Origin: Kocuria massiliensis
GTDB taxonomy: Bacteria; Actinomycetota; Actinomycetes; Actinomycetales; Micrococcaceae
NCBI RefSeq assembly: GCF_900169715.1
Contig: NZ_LT835161.1
Span: 1-64,000, forward strand
DNA length: 64,000 nt
Reading direction: 5' to 3'
In this document: positions 21,539 to 36,525 of the stretch, piece by piece
Position numbering within the stretch: position 1 is the stretch's first letter
How the letters are laid out: every line of letters starts with the position of its first letter
Position numbers and translations under genes: made by a program
The notes under the pieces: model-generated
What the model saw: only the letters and a program-made list of their open reading frames with translations
Told to the model about the DNA's origin: nothing
Database searches by the model: none

Positions 21539-23425
21539 CTACCGTTCGGTAAAAATTGGTTCAAAGAATCGAGCCAATTCGTCCGTGGCGGACAGCGGGA
21601 GCACGGCGGCGACGTACTGGTCCGGGCGCACCACCACGACGGCGCCATCGCGACTGACCTCGCGCTCCGCGAAGATGTCGTCGTCCGGTAGCGTCGCATA
21701 GACCTTCTCGAGGTACGTCAGCTTGAACGGGCCGACCGTCGGCTTAAAGATTCGCGGGACGTCATTAATCTCGACCTCCACGTGCGGCTGCTGATAGATG
21801 ACCTTGGTGTCGAAGACGGCGTCGTCGTCCGCGCCCTGAGGGGTGTACCGCACCTGCGGGGACGAGGGGTCCTGGGCGAACCACTCGGCAAAGTCGGCCA
21901 ATTGCGAGGGTTCGCCGGCGGACGGGGTATCGGCAAAGATGTAGATGCGCCACCGACCGTCCGCCGTGGCCTCGTGACCGATCTGGCGTGGGACGGCGTC
22001 GCACACCCGGTGGGCACGAGCCGAGTGGAATCGTTTGCCGACCGGGAACCCCTTGGCGGCCCCTTGATGCTCCGTACCTGAAGTGATTATGGACGGCGTG
22101 TACTCGGTCATGAATCCCGCCGGGAATTCCGCTGTTTTGACGTAGAAGTCCTCCAGGGTGGAGGCGTCCGGAAGATCTTCCGGCTTGGCCGCCATGAGAC
22201 TGGACCACTCCTTGTCGAAGTCGATCAGGTTCTTCGCGATGACCTGGCGCTCGGCGGAGTAGGTGCTCAGCAGCGACTCGGGACTCGTCCCGGAAAGGAC
22301 GTGTCCGAGCTTCCACCCCAGGTTGAAGCCATCCTGCATCGAGACGTTCATGCCTTGTCCGGCCTTGGCAGAGTGCGTGTGGCAGGCGTCGCCCGTGATG
22401 AAAACGCGGGGTGTGCGTTGGCCGGACTGATCTGCGGGGACGTCGTCGAATTTGTCGGTCAGCCGATGCCCGACCTCGTAGACGCTATGCCACGCGACGT
22501 TCTTCACGTCCACGCTGTACGGGTGCAAGATCGCGTTGGCTTTGGCAATGATGTCCTCGATCGTCGTCTTGCGCACCTCGTGGTTGTCGTCCGCGGCAAC
22601 CTCGCCGAGGTCCACGTACATGCGGAAGAGGTGGCCACCCTCGCGGGGAATGTGAAGGATCGAGCCGTGGATGGACTGGATCGCGCATTTGGTGCGAATG
22701 TCCGGGAAATCCGTGGTGGCCAGAACGTCCATGACGCCCCAGGCGTGATTTGCGGTGTCTCCGCTGAGCGTGCGACCGATCGACTGCCGGACGGGGCTGC
22801 GGGCGCCGTCGCATCCGACGACGTACTTCGCTCGGACGGTGCGCTCCTGACCTTCGTGCTCGCCACTGGTGTAACGGAGCTTGACCGACACCGGGTATTC
22901 ACCGTCGCTGGTGTTCTCGAGGTCAAGGAATTCGATGCCGTAGTCCGGCACGATGCGCCCGGGAGAGTTTTTGGCGAATTGCGCAAAGTGGTCCAGCACG
23001 CGGGCTTGGTTGACGATCAGGTGGGGGAATTCGCTGATTCCCTGCGGGTCGTCTACGGGGCGAGCCGTGCGAATAATGTTTTCGGGGTTGTGCGGATCGG
23101 GCTTCCAGAAGCACATCTCGGTCAGGTGATATGCCTCGTCGATGATGCTGTTGGCAAAGCCAAAGGCTTGGAAGGTCTCGACGCTGCGAGCCTGAATGCC
23201 GTCGGCCTGGCCGATCTCCAAGCGACCAGGTCGCCGCTCGATGATGCGCGCGTTGACCTCAGGGAATTGCGAGAGTTGAGCGGCAAGGATCATGCCGGCG
23301 GGGCCGGACCCGACGATGAGGACGTCCACCGCATCGGGGAGTTCCTCCGGTCGGTCGATGCCGAATCCTGAAGCCTCCTCACGAGTCGGATCGCCAGATA
23401 CATAGCCGTGATGGTGGAACTGCAT
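21539..23425 (-). CDS. mobA: FAD-dependent aromatic monooxygenase, 3-hydroxybenzoate 4-monooxygenase-like
   Basis: 628 aa from ATG 23425, where AAGGAG sits 9 bases upstream; a longer frame has no such site. The dinucleotide motif VDVLIVGSGPAGMILAAQLS, ADGIQARSVETFQAFGFA, the CDGARSPVRQSIGR (DG) motif, FITGDACHTHSAKAGQGMN and a C-terminal thioredoxin-like dimerisation domain match the phenol 2-monooxygenase family. The closest remembered relative is Comamonas MobA, which makes protocatechuate from 3-hydroxybenzoate. The substrate is likely an m-hydroxy aromatic acid. No protocatechuate dioxygenase lies in the window. Divergent from an IclR gene, its probable regulator. Confidence 0.8.
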   Translation of the reverse strand: MQFHHHGYVSGDPTREEASGFGIDRPEELPDAVDVLIVGSGPAGMILAAQLSQFPEVNARIIERRPGRLEIGQADGIQARSVETFQAFGFANSIIDEAYHLTEMCFWKPDPHNPENIIRTARPVDDPQGISEFPHLIVNQARVLDHFAQFAKNSPGRIVPDYGIEFLDLENTSDGEYPVSVKLRYTSGEHEGQERTVRAKYVVGCDGARSPVRQSIGRTLSGDTANHAWGVMDVLATTDFPDIRTKCAIQSIHGSILHIPREGGHLFRMYVDLGEVAADDNHEVRKTTIEDIIAKANAILHPYSVDVKNVAWHSVYEVGHRLTDKFDDVPADQSGQRTPRVFITGDACHTHSAKAGQGMNVSMQDGFNLGWKLGHVLSGTSPESLLSTYSAERQVIAKNLIDFDKEWSSLMAAKPEDLPDASTLEDFYVKTAEFPAGFMTEYTPSIITSGTEHQGAAKGFPVGKRFHSARAHRVCDAVPRQIGHEATADGRWRIYIFADTPSAGEPSQLADFAEWFAQDPSSPQVRYTPQGADDDAVFDTKVIYQQPHVEVEINDVPRIFKPTVGPFKLTYLEKVYATLPDDDIFAEREVSRDGAVVVVRPDQYVAAVLPLSATDELARFFEPIFTER

Positions 23426-23485
23426 GGAGCGGGTCTCCTTCCCCAACCACGATGTTGGAGCCACGATTGCTTCGGTGTGTTCTAT

Positions 23486-23506
23486 ATGAGAACGTAGAAT
23501 TCTCAT
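23486..23506. promoter_or_regulatory. Probable IclR operator between the hydroxylase and regulator genes
   Basis: ATGAGAA-N7-TTCTCAT, perfect 7-bp arms, lies in the divergent gap between the mobA-like gene (starts 23425) and the IclR gene (starts 23572). On the minus strand it falls just downstream of a possible promoter (TTGCCA 23551-23546, 18-base spacer, TATGGT 23527-23522), so binding there would block the hydroxylase transcript. Confidence 0.5.
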
Positions 23507-23571
23507 TCCGAATAGTTTCAGACCATATACGATCTGCGTCACATGTGGCAAGGGTCTCAGAAGGGTGGGTC

Positions 23572-24325: not shown

Positions 24326-24450
24326 TATGTTGAGTGTGTCCGGCATCACTGTAGTTGCCGGTGTTCGAAAAAGGGACACTCAGCCGCTTCTTCCGGCGGT
24401 CAGACATATATGGCCTACTCAAGTTCATATGTGCTTCCGGAGGAAACACC

Positions 24451-26199
24451 ATGCAATCCGTATCCGAAACGATTGCGCGCGCCCTTTCGCGCCACGTTGA
24501 CCAGTACTTCTGCCTCATGGGCAACGGCAACGCCTATTTCATCGACGCCGTCGAACGCCTAGGTCTCAAGCCGACACCCGTCCGCCATGAGACCGCGACC
24601 GTGGCCTCCGCGGACGCGTATTACCGCATGACCCGCAAGATCGCCGTCGCGACCGCGACCTACGGAGCGGGATTCACCAACACCCTGACCTCCCTCGCCG
24701 AGGCGGCGCTGGCCCACATCCCGCTCGTGCTGGTGGTGGGGGACCGTCCGACGTCCGGCCCGCGCCCCCTCGACGTGCAACAGGATGCCTTGGCTGAGGC
24801 GGTTGGGGTGCCGACCTTTACGGTGGGGCGCCACGACGTCGGAACCGTGACGATCCAGGCGCTCGCCGACGCTCGGGACCATTCGCGGCCCGTCGTGCTG
24901 GCGATTCCGTACGATCTCTCCGCCGAGCTGATCGGCGAACGGGGCGAAATCATTCCTGCGCTCCCGGACCGCGCCACACCGCCGCAGGGTAATGCCTCGG
25001 TCCTGCGCGACATCGCCTCCGAGCTCGCTACGTCGGAACGCCCCTTGATCCTCGCGGGTCGCGGAGCGCTTGAGGCCCGAGCGGACCTGCGGGGGCTCGC
25101 CGAGACTCTAGGGGCAGATGTCGCCACCACCGTTCCGACTCAGGGCTACTTTCACGCCTTCCAGGACCGGCGGCCGAATTATCGAGATCTGGGGATTTGC
25201 GGGGGATTCGCTGCCCCGGTCGCCGCGGAAGAAATCCGTGGGGCCGACGTCGTGCTGGTGGTCGGTGCTGGCCTCAACCAGTTCACCGTGGCTCACGGAC
25301 ACGCCTTTGGCGACACCGCCCGCGTGATCCAGATCGACCTCGCCGAAGAACCGACGAATCCGCGCGTGAACCTATCGTGCCGTTCGGACGCGACTCTCGC
25401 TATTCGCGCGATCCGCGAGGAACTGCGGCAGTCGGGGGTTGGCGGACGTAGCGCGCGCACCGTGCCGAACGATGTCGAAGCCCAACGTCGGCCCGTCGGT
25501 GACGAGGTGGCCCCCGACGGCCTTCTCGACCCCCGCCGGGTCATGAGCCGGCTGAACGACGTACTTCCGCCGGACCGAGTGGTCTTTACCGACGGCGGTC
25601 ACTTTATGCAGTGGCCGCTGACCTACCTACGCACTCAAGGCCCTGATAGCCACATCACCGTGGGGACCCAATTTCAGTCGATCGGCCTAGGGCTTCCCTC
25701 AGCCGCGGGCGTCATCACAGCGGCCGGGGATCGCTTGCCCGTGCTGGTCTCGGGTGACGGCGGTGGGCTTATGGGCATTGCCGACGCCGAAACCTTCGTC
25801 CGAACGGCCCGCCGCGGCGTCGTGGTGTTCCTCAACGACTCTGGTTACGGCGCCGAGGTGCATCAATACGCTCGCCGCGGAGTTAGCGATGCCGCGATGA
25901 TGATTCCCGACATCGACTTCGCGGGCATCTTCCAGGCCTTGGGCGCTCGCAGCGCGACCGTCACAAACATGAGGGACCTCGTCGATTTTGAGCAATGGGC
26001 TCGTGAAGGCGCCGACGGCGTCTACGTTCTGGACTGCCGCATCACCGGCGATCTCCGGGCCGACTGGATCATCGCCGCGCTCGACGAAGCGCGCCGTCAC
26101 CATCCGCACGTGGAGGAGATGTTGGGGTTTCAGGCGCCTTCGGCGAGCACCGCGAACCCGGACCCCGCAACAGTCCGGGACGCGGTGCTGACCGACTAA
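24451..26199 (+). CDS. Thiamine pyrophosphate-dependent enzyme of the acetolactate synthase/benzoylformate decarboxylase superfamily
   Basis: 582 aa from ATG 24451, preceded by GGAGGA at 6 bases. Three domains: N-terminal PYR domain with the catalytic glutamate in VRHETATVASADAYYRMT, a central Rossmann-like domain (ILAGRGALEARADLRGLAE), and a C-terminal PP domain with the metal/TPP motif SGDGGGLMGIADAE continuing to VVFLNDSGYG. It could decarboxylate or ligate a 2-oxo acid. No small regulatory subunit is adjacent, so a biosynthetic acetolactate synthase is unlikely. Context next to an aromatic hydroxylase suggests an aryl 2-oxo acid, but this is speculative. Its stop codon overlaps the convergent gene's stop. 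Confidence 0.75.
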   Translation: MQSVSETIARALSRHVDQYFCLMGNGNAYFIDAVERLGLKPTPVRHETATVASADAYYRMTRKIAVATATYGAGFTNTLTSLAEAALAHIPLVLVVGDRPTSGPRPLDVQQDALAEAVGVPTFTVGRHDVGTVTIQALADARDHSRPVVLAIPYDLSAELIGERGEIIPALPDRATPPQGNASVLRDIASELATSERPLILAGRGALEARADLRGLAETLGADVATTVPTQGYFHAFQDRRPNYRDLGICGGFAAPVAAEEIRGADVVLVVGAGLNQFTVAHGHAFGDTARVIQIDLAEEPTNPRVNLSCRSDATLAIRAIREELRQSGVGGRSARTVPNDVEAQRRPVGDEVAPDGLLDPRRVMSRLNDVLPPDRVVFTDGGHFMQWPLTYLRTQGPDSHITVGTQFQSIGLGLPSAAGVITAAGDRLPVLVSGDGGGLMGIADAETFVRTARRGVVVFLNDSGYGAEVHQYARRGVSDAAMMIPDIDFAGIFQALGARSATVTNMRDLVDFEQWAREGADGVYVLDCRITGDLRADWIIAALDEARRHHPHVEEMLGFQAPSASTANPDPATVRDAVLTD

Positions 26200-28235
26200 C
26201 GCCGTACCGCCGTCAGTGGTCGGTCGCGATACCAGGTCACCTCACCGTGCTGGAAGCTTTGTCGCACGCCGCCGTCGGACGTGGGGGTTTCTTCACCGGT
26301 GGGGTAGCCGAGCCAGCCATCCTGCCAGCCGTTGCGCTGCCAGTAGTCCTGGATCGCGCCATAGGTGGCGTGGGCACCGGTGGATGGTGACCAGTGGATC
26401 TCACCGTTGTTGAATACCTGAGAAACCCCGCCCCGCAGGCGAATCTCGTCGGTAGTGGGGTAGCCCAAACGACCGGATTCGTATCCGTGACGTCCATAGG
26501 TACCCAAGACCCCTCCGTGGACCTCGTGTACCGCGCCGGTCCGTGCGTCCCAGAACAACGTTCCACCCTGGAAGGTCTGTGACGCGCCTCCGCTTGCCAG
26601 TCCGGTGATTTCATCTCCGGTGGGGTAGCCGAGCCAACCCTTTTCCCATCCCCGCTGGGCCCAATACGCCTGAATCGCCCCGCGGTCCACGTGGGCCCCG
26701 GTGGACGGCGACCAGTGAATCTGGCCGCCCTGGAAGGACTGCGACGCGCCGCCTTTCAGCTGGTTCTCATCCGTCGTCGGCAATCCGAGGGCACCGGAGG
26801 CACCGCCACGGGAGTCGTAGGCACCCTGGATCGCGCCCTTCACGGTGTGGGCTCCGGTCGCGGCGGACCAGTACACCGCCCCGTGCTCAAAGGTCTGAAC
26901 CCGGGCACCGGCGGGGCCGGCGTCGGTCTCCGGGGCGGTGGGTGCACCGAGCCAGGAATTTTGCTTCCACTTACCGTCAATGGCCCCGACTGGGTGAATG
27001 TTCTCCAGCGGGGTCATGTGAATGTAATCGACCTTGTCCACCCGAGCGGGGAAGGGCTGGTCGGCCTTGGGCGGATTGATCCAGGTGGTGTCTTGGGCGA
27101 AGGCCAACGAGTCGATGATGGCCTGGTACGGGCGGTCATTGAGCGCCGACTGGAACTCCTCGTCGCTCATGCCGAGCGTGGCCGCGGTGGTTTCCGGCGT
27201 CTGACCCCAGCTAGAAGGAACCGGCTGGCCATCCAGGAAGTACCGGATCGCGTAACCGTCCCAGGTCATCGAGAATTCGTGCCACGCGCCGGCGATCTGG
27301 GTGTCCATCCGGTGGGCATCCCGTTTGGTGCCCGCTCCGCCATTGGGCTGCTTGGTGCAGGTGATGTGTGAGGTGTTGGTGGTGTAGGAGTGCTGACTGA
27401 ACACTTCCATGGTGTCGAGCTCCGCAAGGGTGGATTTTTCCACGCCCGCCTGGGTGCAGTACGGCTGATCGTTGCGCAGCCACGCGGCGAAGTGGAGGCC
27501 GTCGACGACGTCGTCTGACATCCGCGCCCGCACGTCCATGCGGAAGGGAGCGTTGTAGATGAAGCCGGTGTTGATGCGGCCTGAGGTGTACGCCGTCCGA
27601 GTGCCCGAAGGGCAGACCGCGCCGCCCGGGCTCACAGTCTCCGCGCTCGGCTCCTGCGAGCCTGACAGGCAGTGGCGTTCGGTGCGAATCTCGAGGTTGC
27701 CATCCTTCACCGAGACGTTGTTGGCCGTGTAGATCGTGTTCCCGTTGGCGCCCAGGCTCGATGCCCGGGTCGTGTATACGTTCCACTGGTCCGACGGCAG
27801 TTCGGATGGGTCGTTGAAATCGTCGCCGCGGGAGAGGTCGTAACTGGGTGCCTTACGAAAGGTTGTCTCCCAGTGCGTCGTCCCCACCAGAACCGTGGAA
27901 CTGCCCGCGGACTTGGCGGTCACGGTGATGGGTACGCCGGCCTTGAGCCCGTCAGCTTCGGTGTAAGTGCCGGGTTTGGCGTACGGGAGGCCTTCTTTGG
28001 TGATGTTGGCCCCGTCGACGGTGATGTAATACCGAACGCCTTGGTCGGAGGGGATGTAGACGGACTTGGCCGTCTCATTGAAGGTTGGTCCTTTGGGGGT
28101 CACCTGCGTGGCGGCCGTCGTCGCCGCCTGTGCGGGAGTCGAGAGGGTTGTCATCGGAGCCCAGGCGAGGGCCAGAGCGAGGGTCCCGGCAGCGGCACAA
28201 CGAGTGATGGACAGTGCGAGTGAGGAAAGGTGCAT
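26196..28235 (-). CDS. Secreted GH16 glycoside hydrolase with LGFP wall-binding repeats
   Basis: 679 aa. Residues 1-38 form a signal peptide ending in TPAQAA. The GH16 jellyroll spans roughly residues 135-420, with catalytic motif ELDTME (E272, D274, E277; the family ExDxxE) and CBM-like sequence before it. From about residue 435 to the end are five LGFP-type repeats, each with a WLGYPT or LGLPT turn, a FQGG or FNNG block and an IHWSPSTGAH strand. LGFP repeats bind actinobacterial wall polymers, so the enzyme is probably anchored at the cell surface and cuts a beta-glucan or galactan. Substrate unknown. Confidence 0.85.
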   Translation of the reverse strand: MHLSSLALSITRCAAAGTLALALAWAPMTTLSTPAQAATTAATQVTPKGPTFNETAKSVYIPSDQGVRYYITVDGANITKEGLPYAKPGTYTEADGLKAGVPITVTAKSAGSSTVLVGTTHWETTFRKAPSYDLSRGDDFNDPSELPSDQWNVYTTRASSLGANGNTIYTANNVSVKDGNLEIRTERHCLSGSQEPSAETVSPGGAVCPSGTRTAYTSGRINTGFIYNAPFRMDVRARMSDDVVDGLHFAAWLRNDQPYCTQAGVEKSTLAELDTMEVFSQHSYTTNTSHITCTKQPNGGAGTKRDAHRMDTQIAGAWHEFSMTWDGYAIRYFLDGQPVPSSWGQTPETTAATLGMSDEEFQSALNDRPYQAIIDSLAFAQDTTWINPPKADQPFPARVDKVDYIHMTPLENIHPVGAIDGKWKQNSWLGAPTAPETDAGPAGARVQTFEHGAVYWSAATGAHTVKGAIQGAYDSRGGASGALGLPTTDENQLKGGASQSFQGGQIHWSPSTGAHVDRGAIQAYWAQRGWEKGWLGYPTGDEITGLASGGASQTFQGGTLFWDARTGAVHEVHGGVLGTYGRHGYESGRLGYPTTDEIRLRGGVSQVFNNGEIHWSPSTGAHATYGAIQDYWQRNGWQDGWLGYPTGEETPTSDGGVRQSFQHGEVTWYRDRPLTAVRR

Positions 28236-28394: not shown

Positions 28395-29792
28395 CTAGGA
28401 GTCCTTGCGACCGGCAAAAACGAGTGGGCTCACGGACTGAGCCTCCTCGTTGCCGTGCCCCAGAGGGATACCCGTTCGGTCGCGAAGCAACAGGTTGGAG
28501 AGGAATCCGAGGACGACGATGCCGCACAGGTAGACGCCAATGGATGCCGTGCTGCCGGTCGCGTTGAGGAGGGACTGGGCGATCATCGGCGCAAAGGCTC
28601 CCCCGAGGATCGCGCCGATCGCATAGGAAATTGAGACCCCCGAGAACCGCACCGAGGCCGGGAAGAGCTCGGTGTACGTCGCGGACTGTTGGCCATAGGT
28701 CAGGCCCAGGCCGATGGTCAGGATCACGAGTCCGAGGAAGAGCATCCCCAAGCTACCGCTATTGACCAGCGGGAAAAGTGTCAGGATTCCGAGGAATAGG
28801 ACGACCCAGCCGACCAGGTAGGAGGTCCTCCGGCCGACCTTATCCGAGAACCACCCGCCGACGATCGTGAAGATCAGCCAGGTGACGGCGGATCCGGTCA
28901 CGGCCAGAAGCACGGGGCCTCGGTCGAATCCGAGCGGGCCCTCAGGGTTCGTTGCGTAGCTCTGGATGAATCCGCCGGTGGTCATATACCCGGCCGCGTT
29001 ATTACCCGCGAAAATGAGGGCCGCAAAGATCACCAGGACTCCGTGCTTACGGAACAGGAGCCCAATAGGTGCCTTGCGCTCGTCCTTGACCTGCGCAATC
29101 TGCTGGAAAACGGGCGATTCTTCGACGCCGTGGCGAATCCAGTAGCCGACGCCGATCAGGATGACGCTCAGCAGGAACGGAATGCGCCACCCCCAGGCCA
29201 TGAACGCTTCGCCTGGCGCGATGGTCGTCATCAGGGCGAGGATGCCCGAAGACATGAGGAGGCCAAGGGGCACCCCGACCTGCGGCGCGGATCCGTAAAT
29301 TCCGCGACGATCCACGGGCGCGTGTTCGACCGCCATGAGGGCGGCCCCGCCCCACTCGCCACCGGCGGAAATGCCCTGAAGGATCCGCAGCAGAATCAAC
29401 AAGATCGGAGCCAGAACGCCGATGCTCGAGTGGGTCGGCAGAACCCCAATCAGGGTGGTGGCGGCTCCCATGCCGATCAGCGTGATCATGAGGACTCGCT
29501 TGCGGCCCCAGCGATCGCCCAGATGGCCCGCGAGAAATGCCCCGAATGGACGGAAGAGGAAGCTCAACCCGACGCTGAGGAAGGACACGACCAGAGCGGC
29601 TTGCGGGCCCATCGGGCCGAAGAAGAGCTTGCCGAAAACGAGTCCCGCCGCCGACGCGTAGAGGAAGAAGTCGTACCACTCGATGCTGGTTCCCACGATG
29701 GTTCCCGCGATGACGCGGCGCTGTTCCTTGGCCTGCGCCACGGTTCGGAGGGCCGCCGTGGTGGTTGTGGGGTCATGGTGAAGATCCGACAT
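28395..29792 (-). CDS. MFS transporter of the metabolite:H+ symporter (MHS) family
   Basis: 465 aa from ATG 29792, with AAGGAG 5 bases upstream; the longer frame has none. About twelve membrane spans. The MHS signature GTSIEWYDFFLYASAAGLVF starts the first span, and the MFS loop motif GHLGDRWGRKRVLM lies between spans 2 and 3. It should import an organic acid with a proton. It is divergent from the homoprotocatechuate cluster and shares its promoter region, so uptake of 4-hydroxyphenylacetate, 3,4-dihydroxyphenylacetate or a related acid is likely by context. Confidence 0.85.
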   Translation of the reverse strand: MSDLHHDPTTTTAALRTVAQAKEQRRVIAGTIVGTSIEWYDFFLYASAAGLVFGKLFFGPMGPQAALVVSFLSVGLSFLFRPFGAFLAGHLGDRWGRKRVLMITLIGMGAATTLIGVLPTHSSIGVLAPILLILLRILQGISAGGEWGGAALMAVEHAPVDRRGIYGSAPQVGVPLGLLMSSGILALMTTIAPGEAFMAWGWRIPFLLSVILIGVGYWIRHGVEESPVFQQIAQVKDERKAPIGLLFRKHGVLVIFAALIFAGNNAAGYMTTGGFIQSYATNPEGPLGFDRGPVLLAVTGSAVTWLIFTIVGGWFSDKVGRRTSYLVGWVVLFLGILTLFPLVNSGSLGMLFLGLVILTIGLGLTYGQQSATYTELFPASVRFSGVSISYAIGAILGGAFAPMIAQSLLNATGSTASIGVYLCGIVVLGFLSNLLLRDRTGIPLGHGNEEAQSVSPLVFAGRKDS

Positions 29793-29877
29793 GCAGACTC
29801 CTTTGTCTCGGGTGCCGGTCGCTATGGAATCAACGACGATCACGGAGACCCCTATCACGTGCTGTGATCTGGGTAAC

Positions 29878-29943: not shown

Positions 29944-31527
29944 ATGGCGGATCCCGCAGCGTTGTCGACGCATAACACCGAGTTTCGAGGCCAAGGCGAC
30001 TGTGCTGATGTGCCCGTTCGCCCCGGAAAAATCATCGCGGTACACCTCTCCTACGAATCGCGGGCCGCACAGCGAGGTCGCCGTCCCCAGGCTCCCTCGT
30101 ATTTCCTCAAGCCCACCAGTTCCCTGGCCGGTTCCGGCGCCGTGATTCAACGCCCGGCGGGCACCGAACTCTTGGCCTTCGAGGGCGAAGTCGCGCTCGT
30201 GATCGGGCGCCCTGCACGCAATGTTCGCCTCGAGGACGCGTGGGATTACGTCGAGTCCGTCACGGCCGCCAACGATTTTGGCGTCTACGACTATCGTGCC
30301 GCCGACAAAGGCTCGAACCTGCGCAATAAGGGCCGCGATGGATACACCCCGCTGGGCCCCGATCTCATCGACGCGCGCGACGTCGATCCGGGCCAGTTGC
30401 GCGTGCGCACGTGGGTTAACGGAGAACTTGCTCAGAGCGACGGCACCTCCGAGAGTCAAATGATTTTTCCGCTCGCCCAATTCGTTGCGGACCTTTCCCA
30501 ACACGTGAGCCTCGAACCCGGCGACGTGATCCTGACAGGCACCCCGGCGGGATCGAGCGTCGTGGCACCTGGCGACGTCGTCGAAGTGGAAGTGGACGCC
30601 CCTCAAGCCAAGGGAACTCCCACCTCCGGGCGCTTGGTAACGCGCGTGGTTGAAGGCCGCGGAGACTTTGATCCGAAGCTTGGTGCCCTGCCGGCCGTGG
30701 ACGACCGTCAGCGAGAAGAGGCGTGGGGTTCTCGCGAGGCGGCGGGCCTTGCTCCGGAGAGTCAGGATGAACCCTCGACCGATGCCACCCCGACCGGACC
30801 GCTCCCGGATGACGTCCGTGCGCGGCTCCTTCAAACGCCCACCGCGGGACTTTCGGCACAGCTGCGTCAGCGTGGGCTCAACCAGGTCAGCATTGAAGGC
30901 GTCCGGCCGGCTCAAGCGGGTACCAAACTCGTCGGGGTCGCTAAAACCCTCCGATTCGTTCCCGCCCGCGAAGACCTTTTCAAGAAATTCGGTGGCGGTT
31001 ATAACGCGCAAAAACAAGCTTTCGACTCCGTTCAGCCCGGTGAAGTCATCGTGATCGAGGCTCGCGGCGAGGCAGGTTCCGGGACCTTAGGGGACATCCT
31101 CGCCCTGCGCGCACGGTCCAACGGGGCGGCGGGCGTGGTCACCGATGGGGGTGTCCGCGATTCGGCGGCCGTCCGCGAGATCGGCTTGCCGGTGTTTTCC
31201 ACGGCCGCGCACCCGGCGGTTCTGGGCCGGAAGCACGTTCCCTGGGAATCTGATGTCGCAGTGGCCTGCGGAAATGCGACCGTTGTGCCGGGGGACGTGA
31301 TTGTTGGCGACGACGACGGCGTGATCGTGATTCCCCGTGAGTCACTCGAAGAGGTCCTGAACGCGGCCGAGGCCAAGGAGATTCAGGATGCCTGGGTCGC
31401 CGAACGTGTGGCCGAAGGTCATCCCGTGGACGGTCTTTTCCCGCCGACCGGGGAGTGGAAAGAGGCCTACCAGCGGTGGCTCTCCGACCGGGAGACGTCT
31501 AACGGTTCCGAGGATGGTCAATCATGA
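29944..31527 (+). CDS. hpaG: FAH-family hydrolase/isomerase fused to an RraA-like domain (HpaG-like)
   Basis: 527 aa. Residues 28-235 are a fumarylacetoacetate hydrolase fold with metal ligands E80 and E82 in AFEGEVALVIGRP and D111 in ANDFGVYDYR, plus DVILTGTPAGSS. After an acidic linker (about 240-285), residues 290-500 are RraA-like, with GTLGDILALRA and TDGGVRD, which hold that family's metal and oxo-acid binding residues. Bacterial HpaG enzymes that decarboxylate 5-oxopent-3-ene-1,2,5-tricarboxylate and isomerise the product carry two FAH halves; here one half seems replaced by RraA. The decarboxylase step may sit in either domain. First gene of the hpa operon, coupled to the regulator by ATGA. 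Confidence 0.8.
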   Translation: MADPAALSTHNTEFRGQGDCADVPVRPGKIIAVHLSYESRAAQRGRRPQAPSYFLKPTSSLAGSGAVIQRPAGTELLAFEGEVALVIGRPARNVRLEDAWDYVESVTAANDFGVYDYRAADKGSNLRNKGRDGYTPLGPDLIDARDVDPGQLRVRTWVNGELAQSDGTSESQMIFPLAQFVADLSQHVSLEPGDVILTGTPAGSSVVAPGDVVEVEVDAPQAKGTPTSGRLVTRVVEGRGDFDPKLGALPAVDDRQREEAWGSREAAGLAPESQDEPSTDATPTGPLPDDVRARLLQTPTAGLSAQLRQRGLNQVSIEGVRPAQAGTKLVGVAKTLRFVPAREDLFKKFGGGYNAQKQAFDSVQPGEVIVIEARGEAGSGTLGDILALRARSNGAAGVVTDGGVRDSAAVREIGLPVFSTAAHPAVLGRKHVPWESDVAVACGNATVVPGDVIVGDDDGVIVIPRESLEEVLNAAEAKEIQDAWVAERVAEGHPVDGLFPPTGEWKEAYQRWLSDRETSNGSEDGQS

Positions 31528-32201
31528 CCGAACTCAAGGTTCCCGCCGCTGTCGGCACGAGCAAGGCCGAACGCGCCTATGAGTGGCTTAAGGAGCGGAT
31601 CGCCCGCCAGGAATTCACCCCCGGATACCGACTAGTGCTGAACACCATCGGTCGAGAGCTGGATATGTCCGTGGTTCCTGTGCGAGAGGCGATTCGGCGG
31701 TTGGAAGCAGAGGGGCTCGTGACCTTCCAGCGCAACGTCGGGGCGCAGGTCGCGATGGTCGACGAGGAACGCTACCGGTACTCCATGGAGAGCCTCGGGA
31801 TTCTGGAAGGAGCCGCAACCGCTCTCGCTGCGCCGCATCTCACCGCCAAGGACTTGGCCTACGCCCGTGAGTTGAATGAGCAGCTCGCGGCGTCGCTGGA
31901 CGACTTCGATCCGCACTCCTTCACCGAGACCAACAGAGCCTTTCACCAGGTGCTCTTCGCCAAGTGCCCCAATCTCAGGATGACGGAGCTGGTCGCCGCG
32001 GAGTGGGAGCGACTGGGCCACTTGCGGGATTCAACCTTTTCGTTTGTTCCGGGGCGCGCTCGCGAGTCTGTGGCCGAGCACGCGAAGATGCTGGACCTCA
32101 TCGAAAGCGGGGCCGACGTCGTCGACCTAGAACGCGCTGCCCGAGACCACCGGCACAACACCCTCAAGAGCTACCTCGCCAAACAACGCAGTACGACCTA
32201 A
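31524..32201 (+). CDS. GntR family (FCD subfamily) transcriptional regulator
   Basis: 225 aa, start overlapping the preceding stop (ATGA). The N-terminal winged helix includes LNTIGRELDMSVVPVREAIRRLEAEGLV. The C-terminal all-helical FCD domain keeps metal-binding histidines in NRAFHQVL, VAEHAKMLDLIESG and ARDHRHNTLKSYL. Embedded between hpaG and hpaE, it most likely represses the operon until a pathway intermediate binds. Candidate sites are the repeats at 29854-29868 (ATCAC-N5-GTGAT) and 29890-29906; which is used is not known. Confidence 0.88.
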   Translation: MTELKVPAAVGTSKAERAYEWLKERIARQEFTPGYRLVLNTIGRELDMSVVPVREAIRRLEAEGLVTFQRNVGAQVAMVDEERYRYSMESLGILEGAATALAAPHLTAKDLAYARELNEQLAASLDDFDPHSFTETNRAFHQVLFAKCPNLRMTELVAAEWERLGHLRDSTFSFVPGRARESVAEHAKMLDLIESGADVVDLERAARDHRHNTLKSYLAKQRSTT

Positions 32202-32241: not shown

Positions 32242-33756
32242 ATGATTGCGGAAGAGACACAGCAGCACGCACAGCCCGAAGACCTTCCCGAGGCGATCCG
32301 CCACTACATTGGCGGACGCTCGGTGGATTCGGTGGACGGAAGCACCTTTGACGTCATCGATCCGGTAACCAACACGCCGTATATCAAGGCGGCGGCGGGC
32401 AAGAAAGCCGACATCGACGCCGCGGTGGCCTCCGCGAAGAAGGCCTTCGAAGAAGGCCCGTGGCCCACGATGCTTCCCCGGGAACGCGCTCGGGTGCTCA
32501 ACAAGATCGCGGACATCGTCGAAACCCGCGGGGAGCGCCTCGCCGCGATGGAATCTTACGATTCCGGTCTTCCCATCACCCAGGCCCTGGGCCAGGCTCG
32601 CCGCGCGGCGGAGAACTTCCGGTTTTTCGCGGACCTGATCGTTGCCCAGCACGACGACGCGTTCAAGGTCCCCGGCCGCCAGGCGAATTACGTCAACCGC
32701 AAGCCCATCGGCGTCGCGGGTCTCATTACGCCCTGGAATACGCCGTTCATGTTGGAATCGTGGAAGCTCGCGCCGGCGATTGCGACCGGTAACACCGTGG
32801 TGCTCAAGCCGGCGGAATTTACTCCTCTCTCGGCCTCGTTGTGGGCCGGAATTTTTGAGGAGGCGGGCCTCCCCGAGGGCGTGTTTAACCTGGTCAACGG
32901 GTTCGGTGAGGATGCTGGCGACGCCCTGGTCAAACACCCGGACGTCCCGTTGATTTCCTTCACCGGCGAATCCGGTACGGGACAAACGATCTTCGCCAAC
33001 GCCGCGCCCTACCTGAAGGGGCTTTCCATGGAACTCGGCGGCAAGTCCCCGGCCGTAGTCTTCGACGACGCCGACCTCGAAGCCGCGATCAATGCGACCG
33101 TCTTCGGCGTCTTCTCCCTGAACGGCGAAAGGTGCACCGCCGGTTCCCGCATCCTGGTGCAGCGGGGAATCTATGACGAATTCGTGGAGCGTTACGCCGC
33201 TCAGGCCAAGAGGGTCAAGGTGGGTTTGCCCTCCGACTCGAAGACCGAAGTTGGGGCGTTGGTGCACCCCGAGCACTACGAGAAGGTCATGAGCTACGTG
33301 GAGATCGGCAAGTCCGAGGGCAGGCTGATGGCCGGAGGCGGGCGTCCCGAAGGATTTGAGGACGGAAACTTCGTGGCACCCACGGTGTTTGCCGACGTCG
33401 CCCCGGATGCGCGGATTTTCCAGGACGAAATCTTCGGACCCGTCGTCGCGATCACGCCCTTCGACACCGAAGAGGAAGCGCTGGAACTGGCCAACAACAC
33501 GAAGTACGGTCTGGCCGCCTACATTTGGACCAATGACCTCAAGCGGGCACACAATTTCTCGCAGGCCGTGGACGCTGGAATGGTCTGGCTCAATTCCAAT
33601 AACGTGCGTGACCTGCGGACACCCTTTGGTGGCGTCAAGGCTTCCGGCCTGGGCCACGAGGGCGGGTACCGCTCGATCGACTTCTACACCGACCAGCAGG
33701 CGGTTCACATCAATCTCGGCGAGGTCCACAACCCCGTCTTCGGCAAGGCAGAGTAA
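32242..33756 (+). CDS. hpaE: 5-carboxymethyl-2-hydroxymuconate-semialdehyde dehydrogenase
   Basis: 504 aa, with AAGGGAG before the ATG. Aldehyde dehydrogenase fold: ITPWNTPFMLESWKLAPA, NAD loop FTGESGTGQTIF, catalytic glutamate in MELGGKSP and catalytic cysteine in NGERCTAGSR. It oxidises the semialdehyde made by HpaD to 5-carboxymethyl-2-hydroxymuconate, using NAD+. Position directly before hpaD and within the hpa operon supports this substrate over other aldehydes; sequence alone gives only the superfamily. Confidence 0.85.
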   Translation: MIAEETQQHAQPEDLPEAIRHYIGGRSVDSVDGSTFDVIDPVTNTPYIKAAAGKKADIDAAVASAKKAFEEGPWPTMLPRERARVLNKIADIVETRGERLAAMESYDSGLPITQALGQARRAAENFRFFADLIVAQHDDAFKVPGRQANYVNRKPIGVAGLITPWNTPFMLESWKLAPAIATGNTVVLKPAEFTPLSASLWAGIFEEAGLPEGVFNLVNGFGEDAGDALVKHPDVPLISFTGESGTGQTIFANAAPYLKGLSMELGGKSPAVVFDDADLEAAINATVFGVFSLNGERCTAGSRILVQRGIYDEFVERYAAQAKRVKVGLPSDSKTEVGALVHPEHYEKVMSYVEIGKSEGRLMAGGGRPEGFEDGNFVAPTVFADVAPDARIFQDEIFGPVVAITPFDTEEEALELANNTKYGLAAYIWTNDLKRAHNFSQAVDAGMVWLNSNNVRDLRTPFGGVKASGLGHEGGYRSIDFYTDQQAVHINLGEVHNPVFGKAE

Positions 33757-33860: not shown

Positions 33861-34967
33861 ATGACCCTCACCAGTACCCCCATCCCCACTCCCTCCGTTC
33901 CAGCCCCGGACATCCTCCGATGCGCGTACATGGAACTGATCGTGACCGATCTGAAGAAGTCTCGCGAGTTCTACGTGGACCTGCTCGGCCTCGTCGTCAC
34001 GGAAGAAGACGATGAGGCTATTTACCTGCGTCCCATGGAGGAGTTCATCCACCACAACCTGATTCTGCGGCAGGGCCCGGTCGCAGCGGTCCGCGCGTTC
34101 TCCTACCGGGTTCGCACGCCCGAGGACGTCGACAAGGCGGAGGCGTACTTCCAGGAGCTCGGTTGCCGAACTGAGCGACGCAAAGAGGGGTTCGTCCATG
34201 GCATCGGCGATTCGGTGCGCGTGGAGGATCCGCTGGGATTCCCCTACGAGTTCTTCTACGAGACGGAACATGTGGAGCGACTTGCCTGGCGCTATGAGCT
34301 GTATGGCGCGGGTGCTTTGGTCCGCCTGGATCACTTCAACCAGGTCACCCCGGATGTGCCACGGGCATGCCGTTACATGGAGGGCCTCGGCTTTCGCATC
34401 ACCGAGGACATCTCCGATGCGGAAGGCACCGAGTACGCCGCGTGGATGCGCCGCAAATCAACGGTGCACGACACGGCCATGACGGGCGGTGACGGCCCGC
34501 GAATGCACCACGTGGCCTTTGCGACGCACGAGAAGCACAACATCCTCTACATCTGCGACAAGATGGGTGCCTTGCGGATGTCGGACCGGATCGAGCGCGG
34601 GCCCGGGCGCCACGGCGTCTCGAACGCGTTTTACCTGTACATCTTGGATCCGGACGACCATCGCATCGAGATCTACACGCAGGACTATTACACCGGCGAC
34701 CCGGACAACCCGGTCGTGCACTGGGATGTGCACGACAACCAGCGTCGCGACTGGTGGGGCAATCCCGTGGTCCCTTCGTGGTACACCGAGGCGTCTCTTG
34801 TTCTGGATCTGGACGGCAATCCGCAGGAGGTCCGGAAACGTGAGGCCTCTTCCGAGATGGACGTGACCATCGGGGCGGACGGGTTCTCCTACACCCGTCC
34901 CGGAGATGAAGACGGAACCTACCGTGGTGAGGCCTCGAAGGGCTTCAAGATCGGTCATCAGCTGTAA
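33861..34967 (+). CDS. hpaD: Homoprotocatechuate (3,4-dihydroxyphenylacetate) 2,3-dioxygenase
   Basis: 368 aa from ATG 33861. Type I extradiol dioxygenase, nearly collinear with the well-studied Brevibacterium fuscum enzyme, offset by 3 residues. Fe(II) ligands H158, H217 and E270 (in RLDHFNQVT, RMHHVAFATHEKHN and HRIEIYTQDYY). The second-sphere H203 (TVHDTA) and Y260 are also present. It opens the aromatic ring between C2 and C3 with O2, giving 5-carboxymethyl-2-hydroxymuconate semialdehyde, the substrate of HpaE upstream. Assignment is among the firmest in the window. Confidence 0.95.
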   Translation: MTLTSTPIPTPSVPAPDILRCAYMELIVTDLKKSREFYVDLLGLVVTEEDDEAIYLRPMEEFIHHNLILRQGPVAAVRAFSYRVRTPEDVDKAEAYFQELGCRTERRKEGFVHGIGDSVRVEDPLGFPYEFFYETEHVERLAWRYELYGAGALVRLDHFNQVTPDVPRACRYMEGLGFRITEDISDAEGTEYAAWMRRKSTVHDTAMTGGDGPRMHHVAFATHEKHNILYICDKMGALRMSDRIERGPGRHGVSNAFYLYILDPDDHRIEIYTQDYYTGDPDNPVVHWDVHDNQRRDWWGNPVVPSWYTEASLVLDLDGNPQEVRKREASSEMDVTIGADGFSYTRPGDEDGTYRGEASKGFKIGHQL

Positions 34968-34975
34968 GGAGAACA

Positions 34976-35761
34976 ATGCTGGAGAAGAACCAACTCAGCT
35001 CCATTGCCGATGATCTGGCGCAGGCTGAGGAAAACCGCACCATGATCCCTCGCCTGACGGCTCGGTATCCCGAGATGACGGTTGAGGACGCCTACGCGGT
35101 GCAGAACGAGTGGCGACGTCGGGGTGAGAAAGCGGGACGACGCTTGGTGGGTCGCAAGATCGGTTTGACCTCAAAGGTGATGCAGCAGGCCACCGGCATC
35201 ACAGAGCCGGATTATGGCGCCATATTCGCCGACCAGGTGTACGAAAGCGGCTCGGTGATCGAGCACGGGCAGTATTCCAACGTGCGCATTGAGGTGGAGC
35301 TCGCGTTTGTGCTCAAGGAGGACCTGGAAGGCGAGGACGTCACCATTTACGACGTCCTGCGGGCCACCGAATACGTGACTCCGGCGTTGGAGATTCTGAG
35401 CTCTCGCGTCGAGATGGAGGGGCGCACCATTGTGGATACGATCAGCGACAACGCCGCTCTCGGGGCGATGGTTCTGGGTGGTCGCCCCATCGCTCCCGAC
35501 GCGACGGACTTACGGTGGGTCGCGGCGATGCTGTACCGCAACGAGACCATCGAGGAGACCGGTGTGGCCGCGGCTGTCCTGAATCACCCGGCCGCCGGGG
35601 TGGTGTGGCTAGCCCGCAAGCTCGCGGCTCACGGCGACAAGCTCACGGCCGGAGAGATCATTCTGGCCGGTTCCTTCACCCGCCCCCTGTGGGTGCATCT
35701 AGGAGATACCGTGCACGCCGACTATGGAGATTTGGGGGCCATCACATGCCGTTTCGCGTAG
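34976..35761 (+). CDS. hpaH: 2-oxo-hept-3-ene-1,7-dioate hydratase
   Basis: 261 aa, AAGGAG before the ATG and 8 bases after hpaD. FAH-related hydratase of the MhpD/HpaH group: [33 protein letters not shown], metal-site glutamates in [15 protein letters not shown], and [13 protein letters not shown] near the C-terminus. It adds water to the 2-oxo-enoate formed by HpaG, giving 4-hydroxy-2-oxo-heptane-1,7-dioate. Overlaps hpaI by 16 bases. Confidence 0.9.
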
Positions 35762-36525
35762 AACTTCCGCAGACCTTCGCCCGCGAGTTGCAGGCCGCCG
35801 AGAGGCCGCTCGTCGGTATGTGGGTGTGCTCCGGCTCGCCCGTCGCTGCAGAAATCGCGGGTTGTTCGGGGCTGGACTGGGTACTTATCGACGGCGAGCA
35901 TTCGCCCATCGGACTGGAAAGCACGGCCTCGTTGTTGCGCGCCGTCGCCCCCTATCCGATGACGCCGATGGTGCGCGTTCCTGTGCTCGACGACGCGACC
36001 ATCAAGCAGTTCCTGGACCTCGGGGCCCAAAACCTGTTGGTTCCCATGATCGATTCGGCCGAGGAAGCCCGTCAGGCCGTGGCGGCAGTTCGTTACCCGA
36101 CGCGAGGCGTGCGGGGAGTGGGCTCAGCATTGGCGCGAGCCTCGCGGTGGGGCGCCGTCGAGGGGTACTTGAGCGCAGCCGAGGAAACGATCTCGCTGAC
36201 GGTGCAGATTGAGTCGGAAGCTGCGGTGTCGCAGGCTGCGGAGATCGCTGCGGTGGACGGCGTCGACGCCGTCTTTGTGGGGCCGTCGGATCTGGCCGCC
36301 TCCATGGGCCTGCTCGGTGAACAGACCCACCCGGACATCACGGCAGCGGTGCTCTCGGTTTTTGAGAAGGTGCGGGCAGCCGGGAAGAAGGTTGGCGTGA
36401 ATGCGTTCAACCACGAGCAGGCTCGGAAGTATCTGGACGCCGGTGCCTCGTTCGTGCTGGTGGGTGCGGACGTCCAGCTCCTCACTCAGGCCTCGCGGGG
36501 GTTGGCGGAGAAATTCGTTCCGTGA
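35746..36525 (+). CDS. hpaI: 4-hydroxy-2-oxo-heptane-1,7-dioate aldolase
   Basis: 259 aa from ATG 35746, inside the hpaH 3' end; the frame runs farther upstream but that segment is read in another phase by hpaH. HpcH/HpaI class II aldolase: GLDWVLIDGEHSP with the catalytic histidine, metal-binding glutamate in VQIESEAAV and aspartate in VFVGPSDLAASMG, and NLLVPMIDSAEEA. It cleaves the hydroxy-oxo-diacid to pyruvate and succinic semialdehyde. Last gene of the operon; the product feeds the succinate-semialdehyde dehydrogenase gene at 48220. Confidence 0.9.
   Translation: MPFRVELPQTFARELQAAERPLVGMWVCSGSPVAAEIAGCSGLDWVLIDGEHSPIGLESTASLLRAVAPYPMTPMVRVPVLDDATIKQFLDLGAQNLLVPMIDSAEEARQAVAAVRYPTRGVRGVGSALARASRWGAVEGYLSAAEETISLTVQIESEAAVSQAAEIAAVDGVDAVFVGPSDLAASMGLLGEQTHPDITAAVLSVFEKVRAAGKKVGVNAFNHEQARKYLDAGASFVLVGADVQLLTQASRGLAEKFVP

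Follow-up and report, generated by a model that had tools for sequence, protein, structure and literature searches.

The HpaG/HpcE enzymes of the homoprotocatechuate pathway are built of two fumarylacetoacetate hydrolase (FAH) halves, which in many bacteria exist as separate proteins, OPETD and HHDDI. In Acinetobacter, the C-terminal-type unit (OPETD) was assigned as the decarboxylase and the N-terminal-type unit (HHDDI) as the isomerase, and the complex of the two surpassed OPETD alone 60-fold and HHDDI alone 12-fold; the same study names structure as the sole basis of the domain assignment in HpcE (PMC12718150). As the gain over HHDDI alone is only 12-fold and the HpcE assignment was made by structure, the roles are not sharply split. 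The isomerase CHMI (HpaF) speeds up the isomerisation of CHM but is described there as dispensable, and CHM also isomerises slowly unaided (PMC12718150).

A different fold is that of the RraA-like proteins, among them HMG/CHA aldolase. According to PMC5065237, Arg-123 of this enzyme stabilises a pyruvate enolate, and the methyl protons of pyruvate are exchanged at a rate of 2 per s, which 1 mM phosphate raises to 604 per s. The decarboxylation of oxaloacetate, likewise activated by phosphate, proceeds at about 2 per s in its absence (PMC5065237).

We analysed a stretch of 64,000 nucleotides from Kocuria massiliensis (contig NZ_LT835161.1, positions 1 to 64,000; hereafter the window), in which a preliminary description had recognised an HpaG-like protein that fuses a single FAH domain to an RraA-like domain. 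The RraA-like domain was held to have replaced one FAH half of HpaG and to carry out the decarboxylation, or else to work as a helper in the same pathway. Our results make it more likely that the RraA fold has replaced the usual isomerase rather than the decarboxylase.

Architecture of the fusion protein

The fusion gene (29944..31527, + strand) begins with an ATG just 3' of a GAGGAGG sequence and encodes 527 amino acids without internal stops. A single Pfam FAA_hydrolase match (PF01557; residues 30-235, 30031..30648, +; 165.8 bits, cut-off 23.9) is followed by an RraA-like match (PF03737; residues 300-462, 30841..31329, +; 119.3 bits, cut-off 24.5), where HpaG would have two FAH domains. An AlphaFold2 model built from 27 aligned fusions consists of two mostly confident domains (mean pLDDT 84.6, pTM 0.55), with low confidence at residues 1-20, 121-125 and 274-278. 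By VIA-align, the first domain resembles FAH proteins, including the C-terminal half of HpcE (1i7o, 217-426; Z 24.9, 197 residues aligned, 2.1 A), and the second resembles RraAS2 (5x15; Z 26.9, 197 aligned, 1.7 A) and HMG/CHA aldolase (3noj; Z 22.4, 204 aligned, 2.9 A). Open reading frame, Pfam domains and model thus confirm the two-domain fusion that had been read from the letters.

The FAH half carries the metal ligands E80, E82 and D111. In the RraA half, the segments GDILALRA (383-390) and TDGGVRD (400-406) contain D384, R405 and D406, which form a D-X20-R-D motif. Both sets are invariant in all 37 aligned fusions, namely the window protein and those of 34 further loci and two plasmid loci, and D384-X20-R405-D406 is also invariant in six standalone RraA proteins, four of them linked to a second type of HpaD (HpaD', see below) and two from more distant Streptomyces loci. 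The preliminary description had pointed out these ligands and segments and had let its reading hinge on a metal site in the RraA half; the ligands and segments are present, and the sequence motif of that site is kept in 37 of 37 fusions.

Gene neighbourhood

The fusion is the first gene of a cluster. Its end overlaps by four bases with a gene for a GntR/FCD regulator (31524..32201, +), of which similar genes occur in 29 of 34 refetched fusion loci. There follow, all on the + strand, HpaE, the CHMS dehydrogenase (32242..33756; 655.2 bits, cut-off 638.35), HpaD, the homoprotocatechuate 2,3-dioxygenase (33861..34967; 433.1 bits, cut-off 321.4), HpaH, the OHED hydratase (34976..35761; 356.5 bits, cut-off 351.5), and a class II aldolase of HpaI type (35746..36525), which matches Pfam HpcH_HpaI and misses the HpaI cut-off (292.4 bits against 368.8). 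The HpaD protein aligns over nearly its full length with the crystallised homoprotocatechuate 2,3-dioxygenase 1q0c (690 bits). From this and the neighbouring genes it can be concluded that the cluster encodes the homoprotocatechuate meta-cleavage route, and the neighbours GntR, HpaE, HpaD, HpaH and HpaI also bear out the pathway to which the protein had been ascribed.

On the other side of the fusion lies a divergent MFS transporter gene (28395..29858, -), probably for substrate uptake, with similar genes in 18 of the 34 refetched loci. A flavin hydroxylase of PheA/TfdB type (phenol 2-monooxygenase subfamily; 21539..23551, -), found in similar form in 25 of these loci, is probably the ring hydroxylase of the pathway. 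A thiamine-diphosphate enzyme (24355-26199, +), with similar genes near nine of 34 fusion loci, may, as a guess, feed the pathway from an aryl-pyruvate. Also located between the pathway genes is a reading frame (26196-28235, -) that encodes five LGFP repeats and weakly matches GH16. A promoter scan stayed at chance level (one found, 1.4 expected).

Family membership and distribution

The whole fusion scores 809.9 bits on the NCBIfam model NF009399/PRK12764 (cut-off 444), which spans both domains (residues 20-516). Since this model already covers the whole architecture, the fusion is known as a family and is not new; the model is named "fumarylacetoacetate hydrolase family protein", and no reaction is given for either half. 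It was found over its cut-off in 35 of 149 genomes of the order, that of the window included. All 34 refetched fusion loci contained HpaE and HpaD, 32 HpaH and 30 HpaI. When 394 genomes of the class were searched with an alignment of the RraA half, 40 matched at E 1e-40, and the scores fell into two groups, at or above 343 bits and at or below 200 bits. Among the best 80 loci listed in a scan of species genomes, all but one carried actinobacterial titles.

Altogether, 128 loci with this RraA subfamily were pooled. The pool is redundant, as two pairs (L129/L075 and L176/L061), each with contigs of equal length, are probably the same loci. Seventeen loci of 16 kb or less were dropped, among them a 5.4 kb contig under a Stenotrophomonas title (L183) which is probably contamination, and the 111 longer ones were tallied. 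Loci counted as "fused" when FAH and RraA matched the same strand at a distance below 400 bases; whether the two share one open frame was examined in 36 loci and in the window. FAH and RraA stood together with HpaE, HpaD, HpaH and HpaI in 96 of the 111, and with HpaE, HpaD and a DapA-type HpaI, without HpaH or HpaI, in nine more; six loci (L044, L054, L143, L167, L168, L180) were exceptions. HpaE and HpaD accompanied the RraA subfamily at 109 of the 111 loci, the two without them being L167, a fusion, and L180, which is not one.

HpaH plus HpaI (96 loci) and the DapA-type HpaI (TIGR02313; nine loci) were never found together in the 111 longer loci, including L101-L105, L107-L109 and other fusion loci. 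This mutual exclusion suggests that hydratase and aldolase are combined in the DapA-type enzyme. In five genomes (L037-L041), FAH halves of the fusion type occur without RraA near an aldehyde dehydrogenase. We take them for a distinct use of the FAH half in the company of aldehyde dehydrogenases; of the remaining neighbours, inspected by eye, some resemble polyamine catabolism.

Plasmid pTC2 of A. aurescens TC1 carries the fusion. A. aurescens TC1 is also the closest sequenced relative of Arthrobacter sp. Rue61a, a strain that can use 4-hydroxyphenylacetate, homoprotocatechuate and tyrosine for growth (PMC3534580). The open-access literature searched yielded no description of an FAH-RraA fusion or of an RraA isomerase.

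The retained FAH half and the missing isomerases

The FAH half resembles the C-terminal half of HpaG (TIGR02303; 170.5 bits, cut-off 276.4) more than the N-terminal half (TIGR02305; 104.8 bits, cut-off 228.65), and it stays below both cut-offs. The term "HpaG-like" is therefore apt as a statement of similarity, but it does not extend to membership in the HpaG models. Both glutamate ligands are missing from the N-terminal half of Klebsiella HpaG (HpaG1), while they are present in HpaG2, in the FAH proteins of single-FAH clusters and in the fusions. A His/Glu pair of HpaG2 is missing from the fused FAH (SYESRAAQ, against NYADHASE in HpaG2). As the fused FAH is metal-bearing and of decarboxylase type, the half that was lost is the metal-less one to which isomerisation has been assigned. 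The RraA domain stands at the place of the second FAH half of HpaG, which agrees with the view that it replaced one of the two halves.

The isomerases of the classical pathway were then sought. HpaF (PF02962) was absent from 33 of the 35 fusion genomes, with weak matches in G121 and G065, and scored 171 bits in a Klebsiella plasmid used as control; BLAST with Klebsiella HpaF gave no match in the 128 pooled loci. HHDDI (TIGR02305) exceeded its cut-off in the Klebsiella control and stayed below it in all 11 actinobacterial genomes searched, among them three fusion genomes (G000, that of the window, G071 and G135).

A similar lack was seen in four actinobacterial hpa clusters (L079-L082) with a single FAH of decarboxylase type together with HpaE, HpaB and HpaD. 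These have no HpaF, no HHDDI over the cut-off and no close RraA (none in two of them, weak matches of 82-85 bits in the other two), and at least two (L079 and L082) contain a DapA-type HpaI by family search. With one FAH and neither HpaF, HHDDI nor a close RraA, they suggest that the isomerisations may need no dedicated enzyme and that an FAH domain might carry out both reactions by itself, which the preliminary description had considered as counter-evidence to its reading.

Relatives of the RraA half

Among solved structures, RraAS2 (5x15, 140.1 bits) is closest to the RraA half, and the nearest solved enzyme with a known reaction in the sequence list is HMG/CHA aldolase, with whose corresponding residues D384-X20-R405-D406 aligns. 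The half stays below the aldolase models (95.8 bits against 304.5 for TIGR02798; 102.2 against 179 for NF006731). A role as RNase regulator was rejected, as the cut-off of the RraA RNase E regulator model NF006875 is missed (57.6 bits against 136) and the context is catabolic. To our knowledge, no RraA-family protein has isomerase activity, and the known members cleave or decarboxylate. By analogy, the proton exchange through an enolate that HMG/CHA aldolase performs would be the essence of an isomerisation by the RraA half.

Two Streptomyces operons, L089 (7120-15477) and L090, contain a more distant RraA, which is 39-40% identical to that of the window and, in L089, scores 143.7 bits to RraAS2 5x15. 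Its neighbours are an extradiol-type VOC protein, an HpaB-like hydroxylase, an aldehyde dehydrogenase, RidA and an FAH. These look like ring-cleavage operons, again with an RraA.

Standalone RraA proteins and the HpaD' pathway

A second subfamily of HpaD, here called HpaD', is 37-40% identical to HpaD and was present in seven of 347 genomes of the order and one of 394 of the class. It lacks one of the arginines kept in HpaD, which we take to be carboxylate-binding. At eight loci, HpaD' adjoins a standalone RraA of the fusion subfamily: six in genus g14 (L034-L036, L197-L199), one in Nocardia miyunensis (L180) and one in genome G254 (L083). Six of these loci also have HpaH and HpaI, L036 has HpaI without HpaH, and L083 has a DapA-type HpaI. 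Neither the fused FAH half nor HpaE lies beside the standalone RraA at any of the eight, and HpaE is below its cut-off genome-wide in all seven of these genomes that have no fusion; the Nocardia genome contains a complete fusion with HpaE elsewhere. A ninth HpaD' locus (L084, genome G054) has no RraA beside HpaD' and a fusion elsewhere in the genome.

In a tree of 51 selected RraA rows (40 fused, five standalone and six others; L197-L199 were left out), four of the five standalone proteins (L034, L035, L036 and L180) fall into a ten-row clade with six fused RraA proteins (support 100/98). The most straightforward interpretation is at least one release of RraA from fusions. The fifth, of L083, groups with the fused RraA of L109 (92/91) on a long branch, which makes a second loss of the FAH half uncertain.

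The HpaD' loci come with a further set of genes. In Nocardia L180, HpaD', RraA, HpaH and HpaI share one cluster with a different FAH, DUF4440, a flavin monooxygenase, Amidohydro_2 and DUF3500. In all six g14 genomes, genes for an FAH (72-92% identical to the L203 copy), DUF4440, a flavin monooxygenase and an SDR are grouped on the contig of HpaD', at a distance of 15-30 kb from it (stretches L203-L208), with Amidohydro_2 in five of the six stretches and DUF3500 near HpaD' in four of the six. This g14 set adjoins an aldehyde dehydrogenase of succinic-semialdehyde type; the two tested score 569 and 563 bits on TIGR01780 (cut-off 646) and 416 and 420 bits on HpaE (cut-off 638). In L084, an FAH of the L180/g14 type lies within 9 kb of HpaD'. 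The HpaD'-linked FAH proteins stay below the cut-offs of both the HpaG C-terminal model (189.6 bits for L203, 171.4 for L180) and a rhamnonate-hydrolase model (225 and 205 bits), and in L203 the metal ligands are present by eye. In L083, two aldehyde dehydrogenases (37-42%) lie 3-6 kb away, and a fusion-type FAH (255.6 bits) is encoded elsewhere in the genome.

Two loci deviate in their gene content. At L083, the gene set of the other loci gives way to a dienelactone-hydrolase domain and an ABC transporter of sugar type. Streptomyces halstedii L167 (8164-16557) has the fusion, GntR, HpaH and HpaI beside a set of the HpaD' type (flavin monooxygenase, SDR, DUF4440 and a second FAH); HpaD, HpaD' and HpaE had no match nearby, and no HpaE was over the cut-off in the genome. 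It is possibly a hybrid cluster.

The linked second FAH indicates that the HpaD' pathway has an FAH of its own. The notion of HpaD' operons without any FAH or aldehyde dehydrogenase was accordingly dropped, as the linked set provides the FAH and, in g14, also the dehydrogenase. As standalone RraA occurs with HpaH/HpaI and without HpaE or the fused FAH half, it travels with the downstream steps. Given the second FAH, however, RraA is retained at loci in which other genes have taken the place of the fused FAH half and HpaE, but these loci are not shown to be without FAH function, and the standalone proteins are for this reason only suggestive evidence. In this suggestive sense, RraA accompanies the downstream steps in either pathway, while dioxygenase, FAH and the presence of HpaE differ between the two; a shared isomerisation of HHDD to OHED accommodates this best.

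Proposed division of labour and its alternatives

We propose that the fusion is a bifunctional enzyme of two folds in the homoprotocatechuate pathway, and infer the reactions of both halves from the comparisons above. The N-terminal FAH domain would bind a divalent metal and decarboxylate OPET, the tri-acid derived from the product of HpaE. The C-terminal RraA domain, of a metal-dependent fold with enolate chemistry, would act in place of the lost isomerase half of HpaG and move a proton to convert HHDD into OHED, the substrate of HpaH. Because HpaF is missing as well, the RraA domain may first ketonise CHM to OPET. We regard as about even the chances that the FAH half decarboxylates and that the RraA half catalyses the enol/keto isomerisation of HHDD to OHED, and perhaps that of CHM to OPET as well. 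A wider reading, held with somewhat less confidence, is that RraA is a dedicated 2-hydroxydienoate/2-oxoenoate isomerase; the fusion would then stand in for HpaF as well as for the isomerase half of HpaG by means of an unrelated fold, and RraA would later have been freed at least once, perhaps twice, to perform this step also in another extradiol pathway, which has a different FAH and no HpaE.

The role of decarboxylase that the preliminary description gave to RraA is not favoured, because the FAH half that was kept is of the metal-bearing decarboxylase type and the metal-less isomerase half is gone, with HpaF absent from 33 of 35 fusion genomes and HHDDI below the cut-off in the three tested; it is more likely that this role is reversed than that it is right. 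In its full form, this alternative has RraA decarboxylating OPET, as its relatives do oxaloacetate, and leaves the FAH half only the isomerisation of HHDD. The D-X20-R-D motif is indeed common to HMG/CHA aldolase, which decarboxylates oxaloacetate (PMC5065237), the fused FAH is without the His/Glu pair of HpaG2, and the HpaD' pathway could need a decarboxylase too. However, the metal triad of the FAH half is missing in the isomerase half of HpaG, and RraA persists in genomes in which HpaE, which makes the precursor of the tri-acid, is below its cut-off. We therefore consider RraA unlikely to be the decarboxylase.

Less probable still, the FAH half might perform both chemical steps and RraA might be a partner that lends shape or activity to the complex, as HHDDI does for OPETD in Acinetobacter; the helper role offered earlier as a second choice is likewise conceivable. 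The 60-fold gain of the complex over OPETD alone (PMC12718150) and the single-FAH hpa clusters without a close RraA speak for such a partner; against it stand the catalytic motif of RraA, invariant in 37 of 37 fusions, and the existence of unfused RraA. Equally improbable in our judgement is a replacement of HpaF only (CHM to OPET), with both HpaG reactions left to the FAH half. It would explain why 33 of 35 fusion genomes lack HpaF, and RraA-type enolisation suits a 2-hydroxydienoate; against it, CHM isomerises slowly unaided and CHMI is a mere facilitator (PMC12718150), and RraA is kept in genomes with HpaE below the cut-off, and thus without CHM by the known route. Finally, cleavage of the hydrated product by RraA as an additional aldolase, as the relation to HMG/CHA aldolase might suggest, is very improbable, because 105 of the 111 longer loci already have dedicated downstream enzymes, HpaH plus HpaI (96) or a DapA-type HpaI (nine).

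If isomerisation by the RraA half is true, a reaction would be assigned to a large actinobacterial family for which the database gives none, a central isomerase of a textbook meta-cleavage pathway would have been replaced by a non-homologous protein, and a new kind of chemistry would be added to the widespread RraA fold. Since fused and free RraA both exist, the division of labour can be tested with single domains.

Comparison with known systems

The window protein is a member of NF009399/PRK12764, with the same architecture, length and sequence and no structural difference. With HpaG/HpcE it shares the position in the pathway, the neighbours HpaE, HpaD, HpaH and HpaI, a metal-bearing FAH half and the two-domain design; unlike them, it has one FAH half, with an unrelated fold in place of the metal-less half, the order of the domains is reversed, no HpaF stands beside it, and the cut-offs of the HpaG models are missed. 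The fold and the D-X20-R-D motif of the RraA half are those of HMG/CHA aldolase (LigK/PcmE, 3noj), but the aldolase cut-offs are missed and the cluster has a separate aldolase. The fold is likewise shared with RraAS2 of Streptomyces coelicolor (5x15) and with the RraA RNase E regulators, from which the fusion differs by its catabolic operon context and by a score below the regulator cut-off.
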